The notes below the pieces were generated by a model. It made no database searches, was not told the origin of the DNA, and worked only from the letters and a program-made list of their open reading frames with translations. From positions 1 through 38,433 of the forward strand of contig CAJXAT010000009.1 in the NCBI GenBank assembly GCA_913050055.1: a stretch of 38,433 nucleotides of DNA, given 5' to 3'. Positions 2-7,667 of the stretch are shown piece after piece (position 1 is the stretch's first letter; each line of letters begins with the position of its first letter). Both the position numbers and the translations under genes were made by a program. The DNA is from an uncultured Flammeovirgaceae bacterium (GTDB lineage Bacteria > Bacteroidota > Bacteroidia > Cytophagales > Cyclobacteriaceae).

Positions 2-1192
2 ATGATGACAAAGGAAAATTACAAAATAAATAGTAACGGGTATTATGGGAAGTTTGGTGGGGCCTATGTACCCGAAATGTTATTGCCAAATATATTAGAA
101 CTTCAAGAAAATTATCTTGAGATAACGAGTAGATCAAGTTTTAAAAATGAATTTGATTATTTATTAAAGGATTATGTTGGCCGGCCCACACCCCTGTATT
201 TGGCTCAGCGCATGTCAGAAAAATATCAAGCACAAATATTCTTAAAAAGAGAAGATTTGTGTCATACTGGTGCGCACAAAGTTAACAATACCATTGGTCA
301 AATTTTATTGGCCAAGGCGTTGCATAAAAAAAAGATCATAGCTGAAACCGGAGCAGGACAGCATGGTGTTGCGACCGCGACCGTTTGTGCTCTGATGGGT
401 ATGGAATGTATTATTTATATGGGTGCTGTGGACATGGTGAGACAACGACCTAATGTAGAACGAATGAAAATTTTAGGGGCTGAGATTCGTGCTGCTGAAT
501 CGGGTAGTAAAACCTTAAAAGATGCCACCAATGAAGCCATGAGGCATTGGATCAATCACCCCACCGATACCCATTACATCATTGGATCGGTTGTTGGTCC
601 CCATCCTTATCCAGATTTAGTAGCCAGATTTCAATCTGTGATCAGTGCGGAAATCAAATATCAGCTCACTGAGCAAATAGGCAGGGATCATCCAGATATG
701 GTTATTGCTTGCGTTGGGGGAGGCAGCAATGCAGCCGGTGCTTTTTATCATTATTTGGATCGGCCTGAGGTACAATTGATTGCTGCTGAGGCAGCCGGCT
801 TAGGCGTAGATAATAAAAAATCGGCAGCGACAACTTTTTTAGGTACCGAGGGAATCCTTCATGGCAGTAAAACCCTATTGATGCAAACCGCTGATGGGCA
901 GGTGACAGAACCCTATTCTATATCGGCAGGATTAGATTACCCAGGAATTGGACCAATCCATGCCCACCTTTTTGATTCAGGAAGAGCCCATTTTTGTGCA
1001 GTGACCGACGAGGAAGCCATGCATGCGGGTATTGACTTGAGCCGATTGGAAGGGATTATTCCTGCTATTGAAACCGCGCATGCCATATCTGCCCTTGATA
1101 AAATTGAGGTAAAAGATAAGGTCGTGGTCATCAATGTATCAGGTAGAGGAGATAAAGATTTAGATACCTACATTACTTGGGGTAAATATTAA
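2..1192 (+). CDS. trpB: Tryptophan synthase beta subunit
   Basis: Catalyses the PLP-dependent condensation of indole with L-serine to tryptophan, as the beta half of the alpha2-beta2 complex in the cytoplasm. The 396-residue length is normal for TrpB. The PLP lysine is K93 in the motif GAHKVNNT (90-97), the catalytic glutamate is E115 in AETGAGQHG, and the phosphate-binding loop GGGSNA lies at 239-244. Two ATG codons stand in tandem at positions 2 and 5; the protein looks complete although it starts at the window edge, so upstream sequence could not be checked. trpA follows after 12 bases. Upstream trp genes, if present, lie outside the window. Identification is firm. Confidence 0.97.
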
Positions 1193-1204
1193 TAGGGTTG
1201 GATT

Positions 1205-1978
1205 ATGAACAGAATTGATGAAGTTTTTTCGAAGAAAAATAAGGGGGTTTTAAACATTTACTTCACTGCAGGCTATCCAAAGATCAATGATACTTTGAGA
1301 ATTGCACGTACTCTGGAGGCTGCAGGGGTGGATATCATCGAAATAGGTATTCCTTATTCTGATCCTATTGCAGATGGACCTACCATTCAAGATTCATCTC
1401 AAAAAGCTTTAGATGCAGGGATGTCACTCAAGTTGCTGATGAGGCAACTGCAAGATTTGAGAAAACACATTAAAATCCCGGTCATATTAATGGGTTATAT
1501 TAATCCTGTTCTTCAGTATGGGTTTACTAAATTTTGCCAGGACTGCAAAGAAGTAGGTATTGATGGCGTTATTTTACCCGATTTGCCAATGCAAGAATAT
1601 GCAGAAATGTACCAACAAATTTTTGAGAAATATGGGATATACAATATATTTCTCATGACTCCTCAAACCTCTGAGAAAAGAGTTTTGCAAATTAATGAGG
1701 CTTCTAAAGGCTTTATCTACATGGTATCTTCGGCAAGTATTACCGGGGCAAAACAGGAGGTTTCTCAAGCCCAAATCGATTATTTTGAACGTATTCAAAA
1801 GATGAATCTGTCCGTTCAAAGATTGATAGGATTTGGTATTTCAAATAAAGAAACCTTTGACAATGCTTGTCAATATGCATCAGGAGCGATCATCGGTAGT
1901 GCTTTTATCAACCAATTGAATAAAGACGATTCTGATGAAGCCATTACTTCTTTTGTCCGATTCATTATCAACCCGTAA
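1205..1978 (+). CDS. trpA: Tryptophan synthase alpha subunit
   Basis: Cleaves indole-3-glycerol phosphate to indole and glyceraldehyde 3-phosphate; the indole is channelled to TrpB. It is a TIM barrel of 257 residues, typical length. The catalytic acid E46 lies in DIIEIGIP and D57 in SDPIADGPTIQ, matching the two catalytic residues of the family. A GxG-type phosphate site near the C-terminus is visible in FGISN and GAIIGSAF. It starts 12 bases after trpB, so the two are surely co-transcribed. The next gene's ATG lies 10 bases past the stop. Confidence 0.97.
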   Translation: MNRIDEVFSKKNKGVLNIYFTAGYPKINDTLRIARTLEAAGVDIIEIGIPYSDPIADGPTIQDSSQKALDAGMSLKLLMRQLQDLRKHIKIPVILMGYINPVLQYGFTKFCQDCKEVGIDGVILPDLPMQEYAEMYQQIFEKYGIYNIFLMTPQTSEKRVLQINEASKGFIYMVSSASITGAKQEVSQAQIDYFERIQKMNLSVQRLIGFGISNKETFDNACQYASGAIIGSAFINQLNKDDSDEAITSFVRFIINP

Positions 1979-1988
1979 AGAACCGTTC

Positions 1989-2714
1989 ATGCAGCAAGAA
2001 TATGAACGTTATGAATCAGAGGATTTCGAAGTTTGGCAGTCGTTGTGCATTCCACAAGAAGAGCAACTACAGAAGTCCGCAAGCGTGACCTATTTGGAAG
2101 GACTAAAAACGATTGATTTTGATGCTGACGAAATTCCACGATTCAAAAAAGTCAATGAAAAATTGCAGTCATTTACTCAATGGGAGCTGGTCGTCGTTCT
2201 AGGGTTGATTCCGGACCGTACGTTTTTTGAATTATTGTATCATCAAAAATTTCCTGCGACCACTTGGTTGCGTAAAAAATCATCACCAGATTATTTAGAG
2301 GAACCCGATATGTTTCATGATGTGTTTGTGCATGTGCCCTTGCTTACCGATGCCTTTTTTGTTAAATTTTTGTTGGGATTGAGTCAATTAGGCTTTACTT
2401 ATTTCAATAATGCTGCTGCTATAGAAGTACTCACAAGGATTTATTGGGTTACAGTAGAATTTGGACTTATTAGAGAGCAGGGTCAATTGAAGATTTATGG
2501 AGTAGGTATTCTATCTTCCTTAGGGGAAACTGCCCATTGTTTATCCAAGGAGGCTACTCGGCTCGAATTTGATTTGGAAAGAATTATGCATCTTGATTTT
2601 CGAAAAGATGTATTTCAAGAAGCTTACGTTATCATTTCATCCTATGAGCAGTTGTATGATGTGATTCCAGCATTGACAAGAAAGATGAATCTCCTATTTG
2701 ATAAAGTTAATTAA
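1989..2714 (+). CDS. phhA: Phenylalanine 4-hydroxylase (pterin-dependent aromatic amino acid hydroxylase)
   Basis: Expected to convert phenylalanine to tyrosine with O2, non-haem Fe(II) and tetrahydropterin. With the start at 1989 the protein has 241 residues, close to bacterial PhhA. The family core is clear: EPDMFHDVFVHVPLL (105-119) carries iron ligands H110 and H115, and IYWVTVEFGLI (151-161) carries the third ligand E157, followed by GILSSLGE. One residue is odd: the glycine normally just before the second histidine (FGHVP) is valine (V114, codon GTG). A longer frame begins at ATG 1935 inside trpA, but the residues it adds do not look like the family, and 1989 gives ordinary spacing. It sits between trpA and hisH, an unusual place. 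Function by family; substrate not proven. Confidence 0.9.
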   Translation: MQQEYERYESEDFEVWQSLCIPQEEQLQKSASVTYLEGLKTIDFDADEIPRFKKVNEKLQSFTQWELVVVLGLIPDRTFFELLYHQKFPATTWLRKKSSPDYLEEPDMFHDVFVHVPLLTDAFFVKFLLGLSQLGFTYFNNAAAIEVLTRIYWVTVEFGLIREQGQLKIYGVGILSSLGETAHCLSKEATRLEFDLERIMHLDFRKDVFQEAYVIISSYEQLYDVIPALTRKMNLLFDKVN

Positions 2715-2780
2715 AATGAAGTGGTACAGATTATCTTGGCTTTTGAAAATTAAAGAACTCACATTATTCACAAATAATAA

Positions 2781-3362
2781 ATGAAAGTTGTCATCATCAA
2801 ATACAATGCGGGCAATGTTCAATCTCTTGAATTTGCCTTGAACAGGTTGGGTATAGATCCTTTGGTTACGGATGATCATGAAGAAATTCAACACGCGGAC
2901 AAAATAATATTTCCAGGACAAGGTGAGGCCCGTTCAGCCATGAATTATTTGAAGGATAAAAAACTGGATCGCGTGTTGACTCAACTAAGGCAACCCGTCC
3001 TAGGCATCTGTTTGGGCATGCAACTTATGTGTAGCCATACTGAAGAAAATGATACCACTTGTCTTGGAATAATGGATGTGAAGGTAAAGCGCTTTGAGGG
3101 AAGTTTTAAAATTCCTCATATGGGTTGGAATAACATCACGCAATTGTCTGGTGTATTATTTGCCGAGATCAAGGAACAGGATTACCTCTATTTTGTACAT
3201 AGTTATTATGTCAATATTTGCGAGCAAACGATGGCCCAAGCGAAATATGGTAATAATTTTAGTGTAGCGCTGCAAAAAAACAATTTTTATGCGATTCAAC
3301 CACATCCTGAGAAAAGTGCGGACTGTGGGATTCAAATACTTGACAATTTTTTAAAAATATAA
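2781..3362 (+). CDS. hisH: Imidazole glycerol phosphate synthase, glutaminase subunit
   Basis: Class I glutamine amidotransferase that releases ammonia from glutamine and feeds it to HisF in histidine biosynthesis. At 193 residues it is normal in length. The catalytic triad is visible as C77 in GICLGMQL, with H175 and E177 in QPHPEKS. The oxyanion-strand motif reads PGQGEA (45-50) rather than the more usual PGVG. A 66-base gap separates it from the hydroxylase gene, with no clear promoter or terminator seen, so it may still be read from the trp side. hisA starts one base after its stop. Confidence 0.95.
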   Translation: MKVVIIKYNAGNVQSLEFALNRLGIDPLVTDDHEEIQHADKIIFPGQGEARSAMNYLKDKKLDRVLTQLRQPVLGICLGMQLMCSHTEENDTTCLGIMDVKVKRFEGSFKIPHMGWNNITQLSGVLFAEIKEQDYLYFVHSYYVNICEQTMAQAKYGNNFSVALQKNNFYAIQPHPEKSADCGIQILDNFLKI

Positions 3363-3363
3363 T

Positions 3364-4083
3364 ATGGAAATTATCCCTGCAATTGACATTATTAATGGGC
3401 AGTGCGTTCGATTGGAAAAAGGAGACTACGTTCGGAAGAAATTATATCATGAAGATCCCATAGCGGTCGCTAAATCGTTTGAAGAAGCTGGGATCAAACG
3501 GCTACATCTGGTGGATTTAGATGGAGCAAAGGCGAAAAATGTTGTGAATTTATCGATACTCAAAGAGATCACCGAGCAGACCTCGCTTCAAGTAGACTTT
3601 GGTGGTGGGGTAAAAACTCGAGCGGATTTGATAAAGGTATTTAATTATGGCGCAGCACAGGTCACAGGAGGTTCTATCGCCGCGAATGATCAGTCACAAT
3701 TTCTTTCTTGGTTGTCGGAATTTGGTCCTGATCAAATCATCCTGGGCGCGGATACTTTGAATGATCAAATCATGGTTTCTGGATGGCAAAAGGCTAGTGC
3801 CATCGGTTTGGAGGAATTCCTTGACTTTTATGTTGGAAAAGGGATTAAATATGTGATTTGCACTGATATTTCTAAGGATGGTATGATGCTGGGTCCATCT
3901 TTTGATTTGTATAAAAAAATACTTAAGCGCCATCCAAGTATTCATTTGATTGCTAGTGGGGGAGTGACCGGAATTTCGGATTTAGAAAAATTAAGAGATA
4001 TGGGAATGTATGGTGCCATTACCGGCAAAGCCATTTATGAAGGTAAGGTTACTTTGGATCAATTGGCCCTTTTTTCATGTTGA
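3364..4083 (+). CDS. hisA: ProFAR isomerase (phosphoribosyl-formimino-AICAR-phosphate isomerase)
   Basis: Performs the Amadori rearrangement of ProFAR to PRFAR in histidine biosynthesis. It is a half-barrel-repeat TIM barrel of 239 residues. The two catalytic aspartates are D8 (IPAIDIING) and D130 (ILGADTL). Phosphate-binding segments DFGGGVKT (78-85) and ASGGVTG near the C-terminus are intact. It is separated from hisH by a single base and overlaps hisF by seven bases, pointing to translational coupling. Confidence 0.96.
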
Positions 4084-4832
4084 CCAAAAGAATCATACCC
4101 TGTTTAGATGTTAAAGATGGGCGTACGGTCAAGGGCATCAACTTTGGTAATTTACGTGATGCAGGAGATCCGGTTGAATTGGCGGCTCGCTATGCTGATG
4201 AAGGCGCAGATGAATTGGTTTTTCTTGATATCAGTGCTACCCTTGAGGGGCGCAAGACGCTTTTAGAAGTGGTTCGACAGGTGGCTCAAAAAGTAAATAT
4301 ACCCTTCACCGTGGGGGGAGGAATATCCTCGCTCTCTGACGTTTCTGCCTTATTAGGGGCTGGGGCCGATAAAGTATCGATTAATTCAGCAGCGGTCATC
4401 CGACCCGATTTAATCAACGAATTGGCGGCTAACTTTGGTTCACAATGTATCATGGTGGCCATCGATGCTCGAAACGATGGGGGAGTTTCCTGTGTACATA
4501 CCCATGGAGGAACGCAATCAACAATCATAAAGACCTTACAATGGGCTCAAGAAGTGACCCAAAGGGGTGCAGGTGAAATATTACTTACCTCAATGGATAA
4601 AGACGGGACCAAAATGGGATTTGATGTTGCCTTGACGCAACAAGTTTCCCAAAATGTAACGGTACCGGTGATTGCTTCTGGAGGAGGTGGACAAAATGAA
4701 CATTTTCTTGATATTTTTGCCAACGGGTATGCCGATGCGGCCCTAGCCGCGAGTATATTTCATTTTAAAGAAATTGAGATAAATGATTTAAAAAAATATT
4801 TAAGAATGAATAATATTTCAATAAGATTATGA
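4077..4832 (+). CDS. hisF: Imidazole glycerol phosphate synthase, cyclase subunit
   Basis: Uses ammonia delivered by HisH to turn PRFAR into imidazole glycerol phosphate and AICAR. The 251-residue TIM barrel has catalytic D11 ([10 protein letters not shown]) and D130 ([10 protein letters not shown]), plus phosphate sites TVGGGISS and ASGGGG. AICAR made here links histidine synthesis to purines. It overlaps hisA by 7 bases upstream and hisIE by 4 bases (ATGA) downstream, so it is part of a tightly packed his operon. Confidence 0.97.
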
Positions 4833-5431
4833 CAGCATTAGACTTTACCAAATTCGACGGTTTGCTACCTGCAGTCATTCAAGATGCCCAAACAGATAAA
4901 GTACTCATGGTGGGATTTATGAATGCCGAGGCTTTGGCGGCCACGCGTGCTTCTGGACAGGTAACGTTTTATAGTAGAAGTAAATCTAGGCTATGGACCA
5001 AAGGGGAGACTTCTGGAAATTTTTTAGAGGTTGTAGCAATCATTCCTGACTGTGATGACGATACGCTACTGATCAAAGCAAATCCTACAGGACCTGCTTG
5101 TCATACCGGTGCAGATACTTGTTTTGGCGAAACCAATGAGGACCCTACAAAATTTATTAAGTATCTTGAAAGTGTAATCTCATTACGTAAAAAGTCAGCA
5201 CCCGATGAAAGTTATACAGCTGATTTATTTCATAAGGGCATCAATAAAATTGCGCAAAAAGTGGGAGAAGAAGCCGTAGAGTTGGTGATTGAGGCCAAAG
5301 ATAATTATCAAGCTCTTTTTATCGGAGAAGCGGCTGATTTGTTTTATCATTATTTGGTCCTGCTTGAAGCTAAAGAAATACCCTTTAAAATGGTCATTGA
5401 TGAGCTGAAAGAAAGACATTCAAAGAAGTAA
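4829..5431 (+). CDS. hisIE: Bifunctional phosphoribosyl-AMP cyclohydrolase / phosphoribosyl-ATP pyrophosphatase
   Basis: A fused enzyme for two early steps of histidine biosynthesis. The HisI half (about 1-110) shows [16 protein letters not shown] (49-64), the aspartate cluster D74-C75-D76-D77-D78, and C91-H92 with C98, which are the Zn and Mg ligands of the family. The HisE half (about 125-200) shows [20 protein letters not shown] (137-156), the MazG-like metal-binding helix. The start overlaps the hisF stop in an ATGA. At 200 residues the fusion is normal in length. It ends the his run; the flavoprotein gene begins 28 bases later. Confidence 0.96.
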
Positions 5432-5459: not shown

Positions 5460-6938
5460 ATGAAAAAGTTTGATGTAATTGTCATAGGTGCCGGACCGGC
5501 AGGATATGCGGCAGCCATGCGTGCAGTTGATTTTAAAAAGAAAGTAGCCTTAATAGAAAAAGATAAATTGGGTGGAGCGGGCATTCACAATGGTGCGCTC
5601 TGGAGTAAAACTTTGTGGGAAATTTCTACCACGGCATCCATGCTCAGAACGCAGGGTTCAGGTTTAAATGTACATGATTTAGACTTTCAAATGGATCAGA
5701 TCTATGATGAGGTCAATACAGCCCTTGATGGGCGTGTAAATCAATTACAACATCATATGGATCAAATTAATATAGCCCTAGAGGGTGATTTTTTTGAATA
5801 TATTGAGGGATCCGCGAAGGTAGTTTCAAAAAATGGTGTCGCTGTCGAGAGTGAGGGAACTACTCAAGAGTTAGCGGCAGATTATATCATATTAGCGACG
5901 GGCAGTCGTCCCAGGAAATTGTCCCATTTATCCATAGATGAAGAAATTGTGATGACCAGTGATGGGTTGCCCAAAATGAATAAATTCCCTAAAAGTATCG
6001 TCATCTTGGGTGCTGGTGTGATTGGATGTGAATTTGCTACCATTTTTTCGGGCTTTGGTCAAACAAAAGTGCATTTGATAGACAAGGGAGATCGTATTTT
6101 ACCTTTTGAGGACGAGGATGTGGTTCGGGTGGTAGAAAAAAGTTTAGAAGAACGAGGCGTATTGATTCATAGAAACTCACGCCTAACAGACATGAAGGTT
6201 GTCGAGGGTGCTGTTCAATACAATCTTGAATATACCGATGGTTCTACCGAAGTGTTTGACGTTGAGAAGGCCTTGATTTCAGTGGGTCGCGTACCCAACT
6301 ACGAAAACCTCATAGATAAATCATTGGGCTTGGAAGTCAATAATAGGGGTATTGTGGATGAATTGACCCAGACCAGTGTTTCAAATATTTATGCAGTAGG
6401 TGACATAACCGCGGATATCTCTTTGGTTAACGTAGGTGAATTGGAAGGAAGATATGCAGTTGAACGCATTTTTGGTGAGCCGAGTCGACCGCTCACCTAT
6501 GAGAATATTTCGACTATTATGTTTTTGGCTCCTGAAGTTTCTGGTGTGGGAATGAACGAACTGCAAGCACAACAAGCAAATCTTAATTATCGGGTGGCAA
6601 GCTTAGATTATAGTTGTATACCTAGAGCCGTTGCCATGAGGAATACCGAAGGATTCATCAAAATAATTATTGGTGAAAATGATTACAAAATCTTAGGTAT
6701 GCGAGTCGTTGGCCGACATTCCTCAAGTGCGATACAAGCCATCGCTTTGTTGATCTCTGATGGCCGAGGTATAGAAGAATTGGCTGAGCTGATTCATCCC
6801 CACCCTTCCATTATTGAAGGTATTCAAGAATGTTGTAGGATGCTTTTGAATAAATCTATCATGAAGCCGAAGGTACTCACTGAAGCTATGTACTGCCGCG
6901 CTTACCGAGAAGGAGTTTACACTGAAATAGCCAATTAA
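5460..6938 (+). CDS. Dihydrolipoamide dehydrogenase-fold flavoprotein lacking the redox disulfide
   Basis: A class I pyridine nucleotide-disulfide oxidoreductase fold, 492 residues. The FAD motif IGAGPAGYAA (9-18) ends in acidic E33; the NAD(P) motif is LGAGVIGCEF (183-192) with D208 at the end of the next strand; a second FAD segment is YAVGDIT (311-317). The C-terminal dimer-interface base is kept: HPHPS (446-450) with E453. The family's CxxxxC disulfide is missing: the aligned stretch is GGAGIHNGALWSK (38-50), with G41 and A46 in place of the cysteines. It therefore cannot work as a normal lipoamide dehydrogenase. Soluble transhydrogenase SthA also lacks the full disulfide but does not keep the His-Glu pair, to my knowledge. 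The substrate is unknown. It lies 28 bases after hisIE and may be in its transcript. Confidence 0.75.
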   Translation: MKKFDVIVIGAGPAGYAAAMRAVDFKKKVALIEKDKLGGAGIHNGALWSKTLWEISTTASMLRTQGSGLNVHDLDFQMDQIYDEVNTALDGRVNQLQHHMDQINIALEGDFFEYIEGSAKVVSKNGVAVESEGTTQELAADYIILATGSRPRKLSHLSIDEEIVMTSDGLPKMNKFPKSIVILGAGVIGCEFATIFSGFGQTKVHLIDKGDRILPFEDEDVVRVVEKSLEERGVLIHRNSRLTDMKVVEGAVQYNLEYTDGSTEVFDVEKALISVGRVPNYENLIDKSLGLEVNNRGIVDELTQTSVSNIYAVGDITADISLVNVGELEGRYAVERIFGEPSRPLTYENISTIMFLAPEVSGVGMNELQAQQANLNYRVASLDYSCIPRAVAMRNTEGFIKIIIGENDYKILGMRVVGRHSSSAIQAIALLISDGRGIEELAELIHPHPSIIEGIQECCRMLLNKSIMKPKVLTEAMYCRAYREGVYTEIAN

Positions 6939-6986: not shown

Positions 6987-7667
6987 TTAATAATAGACGG
7001 CCACTTCTTTAAGGGGTTTTCTCTTTAAATCAGGAACGTAAGCGTGTTCATCAGCATAACCGACAGGTAGTAAAAGAAAGGGGCGCTCATTTTTTGGGCG
7101 GTTTAGAATTTTTGTTAAAAAAGTCATAGGGTTAGGTGTATGTGTCAAGGTAGCCAATCCAGCCTGATGTATGGCGGTAATCAGTAGACCACAAGCGATT
7201 CCTACACTTTCATTTACATAATAGTTGTTTTGCTTTTCCTTTTGATCCAGCTGGTAGGCCTGCTTAAATACAACGATCAGCCATGGGGCGTTTTCTAGAA
7301 AAGGCTTGTGCCAATCGGTAGCCATGGGCTTCAAGTCCTTCAACCATCGATCCGACATCCGATGAGTGTAGCTTTCTTTTTCTTCTGCTTCGGCAGCTTT
7401 TCTTATTTCTTTTTTTAAGGAGGCGGAAGAAATGGCACAAAACGTCCAGGGTTGTTTGTTGGCACCCGAAGGAGCGGTTGATGCCGTTTCTATCAAGCGA
7501 TTAATAATAGATTTATCAATGGGTTCAGAGGACAGATCTCGAACGGTTCTTCTTTGATTCATTGACTCATAAAACTCGAGGGATTTTTGCTCCATCACCT
7601 CTTTGGAATATTTTGGAGCTGTATATCTTAGATGCTTAAATCCATTGATTTTTTTTGTTTCTTCCAT
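6987..7667 (-). CDS. Nitroreductase-family FMN protein, iodotyrosine deiodinase-like
   Basis: An FMN-binding nitroreductase-fold protein of 226 residues whose closest recognisable match is iodotyrosine deiodinase (IYD), which reductively dehalogenates halotyrosines. FMN-contact motifs are NQRRTVRDLS (37-46) and TAPSGANKQPWTF (64-76); the C-terminal motif is PVGY followed by VPDLKRKPL. The IYD active-site lid lies at about 96-121: E96, Y100 and K121 line up, with the same spacing, with human E157, Y161 and K182, which grip the zwitterion of tyrosine. No N-terminal membrane anchor is present, as expected for bacterial forms. It lies 12 bases downstream of the M49-like gene on the same strand, so they are probably co-transcribed. 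General nitroreductase activity is the alternative. Confidence 0.8.
   Translation of the reverse strand: MEETKKINGFKHLRYTAPKYSKEVMEQKSLEFYESMNQRRTVRDLSSEPIDKSIINRLIETASTAPSGANKQPWTFCAISSASLKKEIRKAAEAEEKESYTHRMSDRWLKDLKPMATDWHKPFLENAPWLIVVFKQAYQLDQKEKQNNYYVNESVGIACGLLITAIHQAGLATLTHTPNPMTFLTKILNRPKNERPFLLLPVGYADEHAYVPDLKRKPLKEVAVYY

Follow-up and report, generated by a model that had tools for sequence, protein, structure and literature searches.

Genomic Context of the Flavoenzyme Gene

The window, that is, the whole stretch of 38,433 nucleotides that was analysed, carries a flavoenzyme gene between hisIE and a convergent nitroreductase-family gene (Table 1). Upstream of it, positions 2-5431 hold trpB-trpA, a gene for a Biopterin_H-family hydroxylase (1935-2714) and hisH-hisA-hisF, followed by hisIE; the trp, hisH, hisA and hisF names were assigned by reading the sequences. 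An initial annotation, made from the sequence alone, had described the spacing after the histidine operon as unusual. The gap from the hisIE stop, which ends at 5431, to the ATG at 5460 is 28 bases, which is ordinary within an operon.

Table 1. Features of the flavoenzyme gene and its immediate neighbours in the window
Feature	Position	Strand	Basis or remark
hisIE, local neighbour, not a family-wide partner	4829..5431	+	28 bases upstream of the flavoenzyme
Cysteine-less class I flavoprotein-disulfide-reductase-like protein, 492 aa, ATG start	5460..6938	+	PF07992, PF02852
FAD-binding GxGxxG, G10-G15	5487..5504	+	Translation; alignment conservation
GGAGIHNGALWSK, residues 38-50, site of the missing CxxxxC, with G41 and A46	5571..5609	+	
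W53, invariant family mark	5616..5618	+	95/95 rows, joint alignment
NAD(P)-binding GAGVIG (184-189) with D208	6009..6083	+	Joint alignment
N324, 91/95 family rows	6429..6431	+	Joint alignment
HPHPSIIE (446-453), retained His-Glu pair H448/E453	6795..6818	+	Joint alignment
R460 (helix 449-462) and K469 (helix 468-472), family-specific basic residues	6837..6866	+	
C-terminal extension, predicted hairpin 477-489 with near-invariant C479	6888..6926	+	
Nitroreductase-family protein, convergent neighbour recurring in related loci	6987..7667	-	

Domain Composition and Predicted Structure

The window protein has the class I flavoprotein-disulfide-reductase fold, with FAD/NAD-binding and dimerisation domains; PF07992 (187.2 bits) and PF02852 (86.5 bits) both scored above their Pfam cut-offs. 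The best NCBIfam model for this protein was TIGR01350, dihydrolipoyl dehydrogenase, at 376.3 bits and under the cut-off of 408.8. The window protein likewise stayed under the cut-offs of the SthA model NF003585 (283.0 bits, cut-off 465), the NAD(P)H-quinone dehydrogenase model NF005883 (283.7 bits, cut-off 479) and the MerA model (272.8 bits, cut-off 454.45). By sequence, the closest solved structure was the lipoamide dehydrogenase (LPD) 1ebd, at 220.2 bits, or 297.5 bits with the family profile.

An AlphaFold2 model based on 64 sequences reached a mean pLDDT of 90.6 and a pTM of 0.89. Structure comparison of this model showed the predicted fold to be that of LPD. The best VIA matches were LPDs (2qae_A, Z 43.4, rmsd 1.9 over 456), with MerA 1zx9 (Z 41.8) and the filamentous soluble transhydrogenase (STH) 9n4y_g (Z 41.7) not far below, and the solved structures nearest to the window protein were the LPDs 1ebd, 6uzi and 2qae. 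The best 50 matches each from Foldseek and VIA were of LPD, MerA and STH types, and they barely covered the residues after 477. The tail was modelled as a hairpin of strands 477-483 and 486-489, with blocks 471-490 at pLDDT 87-89.

Conservation of the Cysteine-Less Motif and the Retained Base

The family set comprised 95 distinct rows after removal of 4 identical ones from 99; of the 95, 4 are incomplete or have no stop in the locus. The set was aligned jointly with reference rows, 21 of LPD type and 7 of STH. Loci L050-L129 are the best 80 of at least 574 related stretches from a peptide scan of named genomes with GAGVIGCE and HPHPSI[IT]E. Because C190 and HPHPSI were in the scan patterns, part of their conservation follows from the sampling; positions 41, 46, 48, 53, 324, 460, 469 and 479 lie outside these patterns. 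All rows were picked by likeness to cysteine-less members, so that Cys-keeping relatives could be passed over.

Residues 38-50 of the window protein read GGAGIHNGALWSK. The corresponding stretch is GGVCLNWGCIPTK in one canonical LPD encoded by this genome and GGTCLNVGCIPSK in the other. The initial annotation had noted that both family cysteines are replaced there (G41, A46), and this holds for the whole set: column 41 is Gly in 93 rows and Ala in 2, column 46 is Ala in 86 and Val in 9, and Cys occurs in 0 of 95, a loss far more consistent than chance would give. The redox-active CxxxxC by which dihydrolipoamide dehydrogenases are defined is thus absent at both places in 95/95 rows. Judged by these sequences, the family cannot carry out the usual dithiol exchange through a CxxxxC pair, as had been concluded for the window protein.

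The cofactor motifs are kept, in line with the first description. G10, G12 and G15 are invariant in a 64-sequence alignment (A2), while G184, G186, G189 and D315 are each found in 95/95 family rows and D208 in 90/95. Under the nicotinamide specificity rule an aspartate of the D208 type goes with NADH, and D208 therefore suggests an NADH preference. The His-Glu base is retained as well, and of the two candidates named earlier, H446 and H448, the second is the right one: the H448 column is His in 21/21 LPD-type rows and Tyr in 7/7 STH rows, which identifies H448 as the catalytic histidine, with E453 as its partner. Both residues are present in all 92 family rows reaching that region, a count biased upward by the use of HPHPSI as a scan pattern.

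The Trp in place of the CIPSK proline, which had also been singled out, is correct for the window protein, and Pro is found in 0/95 family rows. As a mark of the family it does not serve: W48 occurs in 14/95 rows, with Ser in 56 and Thr in 17, and is a lineage variant. Better family marks are W53, N324, L356, R460, K469 and the C-terminal extension with C479, which the initial annotation had missed. W53 (95/95) is replaced by Leu/Ile in LPD rows and by Arg/Lys in STH rows, and N324 (91/95) by His in 21/21 LPD-type rows. Among the residues that reach at least 95% in the family and are shared by no more than one reference row are W53, V323, N324, I353, M354, L356, S422, S450, I451, G454, Q456, R460 and K469. 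By alignment position, several of these presumably fall on segments flanking the flavin and the lipoamide channel in LPD. On these alignment-based assignments, the family pocket may be read as re-fitted for one acceptor, with two basic side chains added.

Phylogenetic Analysis

Two trees were inferred, with 31 and 18 family rows, respectively; Rv3303c-type and eukaryotic sequences lay outside both. The cysteine-less variant formed its own clade with 100/100 support in each. In the first tree, two SthA-type rows joined the family at 97/88. In the second, with seven STH rows, the family (100/100), STH (100/100) and LPD (99/98) clades were recovered, and LPD+STH received only 27/0. Both trees carried long-branch warnings; in the second, the Gor outgroup and the family were the branches concerned.

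The STH clade, at 100/100, contained no family rows, which places the family outside STH. A sister relation to STH and one to LPD fit equally well: the grouping of the first tree was gone once more STH rows had been added, and a topology test rejected neither family+STH (p-AU 0.503) nor family+LPD (p-AU 0.506). The family is best called a third deep branch alongside LPD and STH. Of the earlier suggestion of a distinct branch beside SthA, the distinct branch stands, while the place beside SthA is matched by one beside LPD.

These data also bear on the possibility that electrons pass to the other nicotinamide nucleotide, the reaction of the soluble transhydrogenase SthA, which is likewise without a full disulfide. 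The 97/88 grouping of the first tree would fit such a function, as would the resemblance of the NGALSSK segment to TGTIPSK of STH and a protein over the NF003585 cut-off whose first Cys is also lost (GGAGVQTGTLPSK). We nevertheless consider it unlikely. The window protein falls far below that cut-off (283.0 bits vs 465), D208 points to NADH, and by p-AU the sister relation to STH fits no better than one to LPD. Both marks of transhydrogenases, given as CxxxxT and YxxxxE in a study of SthA (PMC9460512), are absent: the family has Ala or Val at position 46, where STH rows have Thr in 7/7, and His448 in 92/92 rows, where STH rows have Tyr in 7/7.

The GGAGVQTGTLPSK protein (L144; genome G400, C38:33413-34804) comes from the same taxonomic class as the window, is of SthA type and has GxxxxT. 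Its genome was the only one over the NF003585 cut-off among 149 sampled, and held a second such place (C6:702-2093). L144 exceeds the STH cut-off with GxxxxT, which shows that not every STH has the Cys. STH-type proteins of Ruegeria (L150) and Streptomyces (L151) carry SxxxxT for CxxxxT, and an SxxxxT-type STH form is mentioned for Streptomyces avermitilis in PMC9460512.

Within the family, L129 (3980-5485) and L125 are a divergent pair that formed the first split in the tree with more STH rows, with weak support. L129 reads GGAGIHHGALCSK, with Cys at the W48 position, and the C-termini of both differ.

Selection and Distribution

Pairwise dN/dS within the genus ranged from 0.067 to 0.194 (5 pairs), and two more pairs were saturated in dS. 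The gene is under purifying selection. Sequencing error, the refuting explanation named in the initial annotation, and a pseudogene or decaying copy were both ruled out, because 95 distinct rows are without the cysteines and dN/dS is low. The window's genome, 84.88% complete, also encodes two canonical CxxxxC LPDs with 30 and 28% identity to the window protein. Replacement of E3 by the window protein is unlikely, since these two are available for E3 duty.

Of 39 genomes near the window, its own included, 19 encode an orthologue with at least 49% identity, and the rest gave LPD-like matches of at most 33%. Matches at E 1e-150 or better occurred in 32/192 sampled genomes of the order, and matches at E 1e-120 in 5/247 sampled genomes of the phylum. 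The family is thus patchy and not universal. The scan matches kept (the best 80 of at least 574) had mostly Cytophagales/Flavobacteriales titles, with two Kapabacteria and a few other labels; some of the latter are perhaps binning errors. L128 (Cyclobacteriaceae) and L050 (Flammeovirgaceae) share 96% identity with the window protein. The trait is more general than could be known from the window: it belongs to a conserved, deep bacterial clade.

Gene Neighbourhood across the Family

Neighbours were counted over 94 loci (L125, of the 95, had no called core ORF) from crude ORF calls and flanks of ~1.5 or 4 kb. The proposed link to the his operon did not extend to the family, as hisIE is the adjacent upstream same-strand gene in only 9/94 loci: the window, L006, L007, L128, L050, L011 and L012, with L013 and L014 less close. 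Apart from the window, six of these are at 77-97% identity and two at 65-67%. Clusters of his genes anywhere in the flank were found in 15/94 loci, and a his-operon function was rejected as a general rule on both counts.

Other neighbours recurred in parts of the family only: immediately upstream a PF19420 (DDAH-type) protein in 7/94 loci, a nitroreductase as the next downstream gene in 10/88, and a divergent CxxCxxCC-domain protein in 10/94. No conserved gene partner pointing to a substrate was found across the 94 loci. An aromatic amino acid hydroxylase (PAH) lies in the flank of 9 loci, the window included, and is adjacent upstream in 4/94, which might suggest a reductase serving that enzyme, e.g., in pterin recycling. 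Such a role is very improbable. PAH was present in 19/32 sampled genomes of the order with the family and in 101/160 without it, and this lack of co-occurrence disfavours PAH as a partner.

Individual loci differ in their arrangement. L051 and L054 carry the same hydroxylase cluster after trpB and trpA clusters, plus one more cluster (DAHP synthase in L051), and have no his genes ahead of the flavoenzyme. Tryptophan 2,3-dioxygenase lies ~20 bases upstream of the flavoenzyme in L117. In L066 and L068, which have SAR324 and Deltaproteobacteria titles, the flavoenzyme follows a three-domain TPP enzyme by ~25 bases, and the gene 3' of it reads as pyruvate kinase (named from sequence).

Comparison with Characterized Flavoproteins

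A cysteine-less LPD relative is already known from yeast. According to its description, Irc15p of Saccharomyces cerevisiae is a duplicate of LPD1 that has lost the redox cysteines and kept the His-Glu pair (PMC6296175). NAD(P)H, and preferentially NADH, converts its flavin to the hydroquinone, and the protein passed electrons to ferricyanide, DCPIP, MTT and MQ and to none of the disulfides reported as tested there (PMC6296175). As far as that description goes, Irc15p resembles the family as an LPD-like FAD protein without both redox cysteines and with His-Glu. The family, by contrast, is bacterial and forms a clade apart, distinguished by particular pocket residues and an extended C-terminus.

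SthA and LpdA are without part of the motif. The family shares with SthA the class I fold and an incomplete disulfide motif, and the two are neighbouring deep clades; SthA has CxxxxT/YxxxxE and no conserved C-terminal Cys, whereas the family has GxxxxA/HxxxxE and the window protein is below the NF003585 cut-off. The SthA C45A variant is reported to be still reduced by NADH, with a kred of 710 per s vs 303 per s in the wild type; its FAD content is somewhat lower, its Kd for NADH is raised 3 to 4 fold, and 37% of its electrons end up in H2O2 (PMC9460512). These defects indicate that loss of the Cys is not free. LpdA of Mycobacterium tuberculosis (Rv3303c) is described as a quinone reductase without one Cys and without the His-Glu pair (PMC6296175). 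Like the family, it belongs by that description to the class I relatives with an incomplete disulfide, but the pair is kept in the family, and the window protein scores 283.7 vs the NF005883 cut-off of 479.

E3 is nearest by profile (TIGR01350) and by solved structures and shares the His-Glu pair. The family is set apart from it by the missing CxxxxC, a window score below the TIGR01350 cut-off, N324 for His and the extra C-terminal hairpin. In the open-licence PMC literature, no description of a cysteine-less bacterial clade was found among the matches listed.

Proposed Function and Possible Role of the C-Terminal Cysteine

A different electron acceptor than a dithiol is the best reading of these data. 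We propose that the family proteins are most likely NADH-dependent flavin reductases (diaphorases) with direct transfer from the flavin to a small acceptor, and give this roughly an even chance of being correct. It is supported by the absence of Cys at 41 and 46, the retained His-Glu pair, D208, purifying selection, the LPD fold and the presence of two E3-type LPDs. With Irc15p and SthA C45A as precedents, electron flow from NADH to flavin to acceptor without a thiol is the reading that fits best.

The enzyme would be a soluble FAD protein, presumably dimeric like its relatives. Hydride would pass from NADH, the probable donor, to FAD in the manner of lipoamide dehydrogenase. The reduced flavin would then deliver electrons directly to the acceptor, in the pocket that once held the disulfide and the substrate, because there is no disulfide to pass them on. 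His448-Glu453 would act as a proton relay for the acceptor instead of for a thiolate, and the altered pocket residues W53, N324, M354, L356, R460 and K469 may be fitted for one acceptor. The acceptor is probably small and perhaps quinone-like or anionic. The acceptors of Irc15p were artificial, and the reduction of quinones by a reduced flavoprotein is weak evidence of a physiological role.

It is quite unlikely that the flavoprotein reduces mainly O2, or that it is of LPD-like origin but non-catalytic and serves to sense NADH or as a structural component. The passage of 37% of electrons to H2O2 in SthA C45A (PMC9460512) would agree with the former, and the microtubule association of Irc15p and the shift of its structure with NADH and peroxide (PMC6296175) with the latter. 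However, few positions in the family are as well conserved as those around the lost-disulfide motif and the His-Glu pair, and such conservation favours a specific acceptor.

A thiol role is still conceivable because C479 is conserved, and this counts against a diaphorase function. The residue is present in 84/95 family rows, where 21/21 LPD-type and 5/7 STH rows have a gap, and lies in the tail modelled as a hairpin. The Cys of one subunit could take electrons from the partner's flavin and reduce a disulfide or bind a metal, together with a second tail Cys, such as that of the CxxC in some relatives, or with C458 in the helix before the extension. C458 is found in 87/95 rows and a tail CxxC in 25/95, with CxxxC in 2 and CxC in 1, and the family has retained the His-Glu pair, which functions in dithiol exchange. 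Such a relocated thiol is nonetheless improbable: a second tail Cys in such a motif is absent from 60/95 rows, the window protein included, and C479 itself is missing from 8 of the 92 rows reaching the region. In high-Mr thioredoxin reductase and MerA, C-terminal tails depend on the N-terminal CxxxxC, a motif that the family does not have. A more specific version, in which the C479 hairpin of the partner subunit takes the place of the lost N-terminal disulfide at the flavin and His448-Glu453 still provides the base for it, is less probable again; if true, the non-flavin redox centre would be arranged in a new way.

The diaphorase function that we favour and its alternatives concern a class I family known for its disulfide, in which a whole deep clade under selection has no disulfide and keeps its base. 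The clade is a natural test of what the base is for and of the re-use of the fold for another acceptor. As the best profile match of the window protein is dihydrolipoyl dehydrogenase, genes of the family could be mislabelled as E3.
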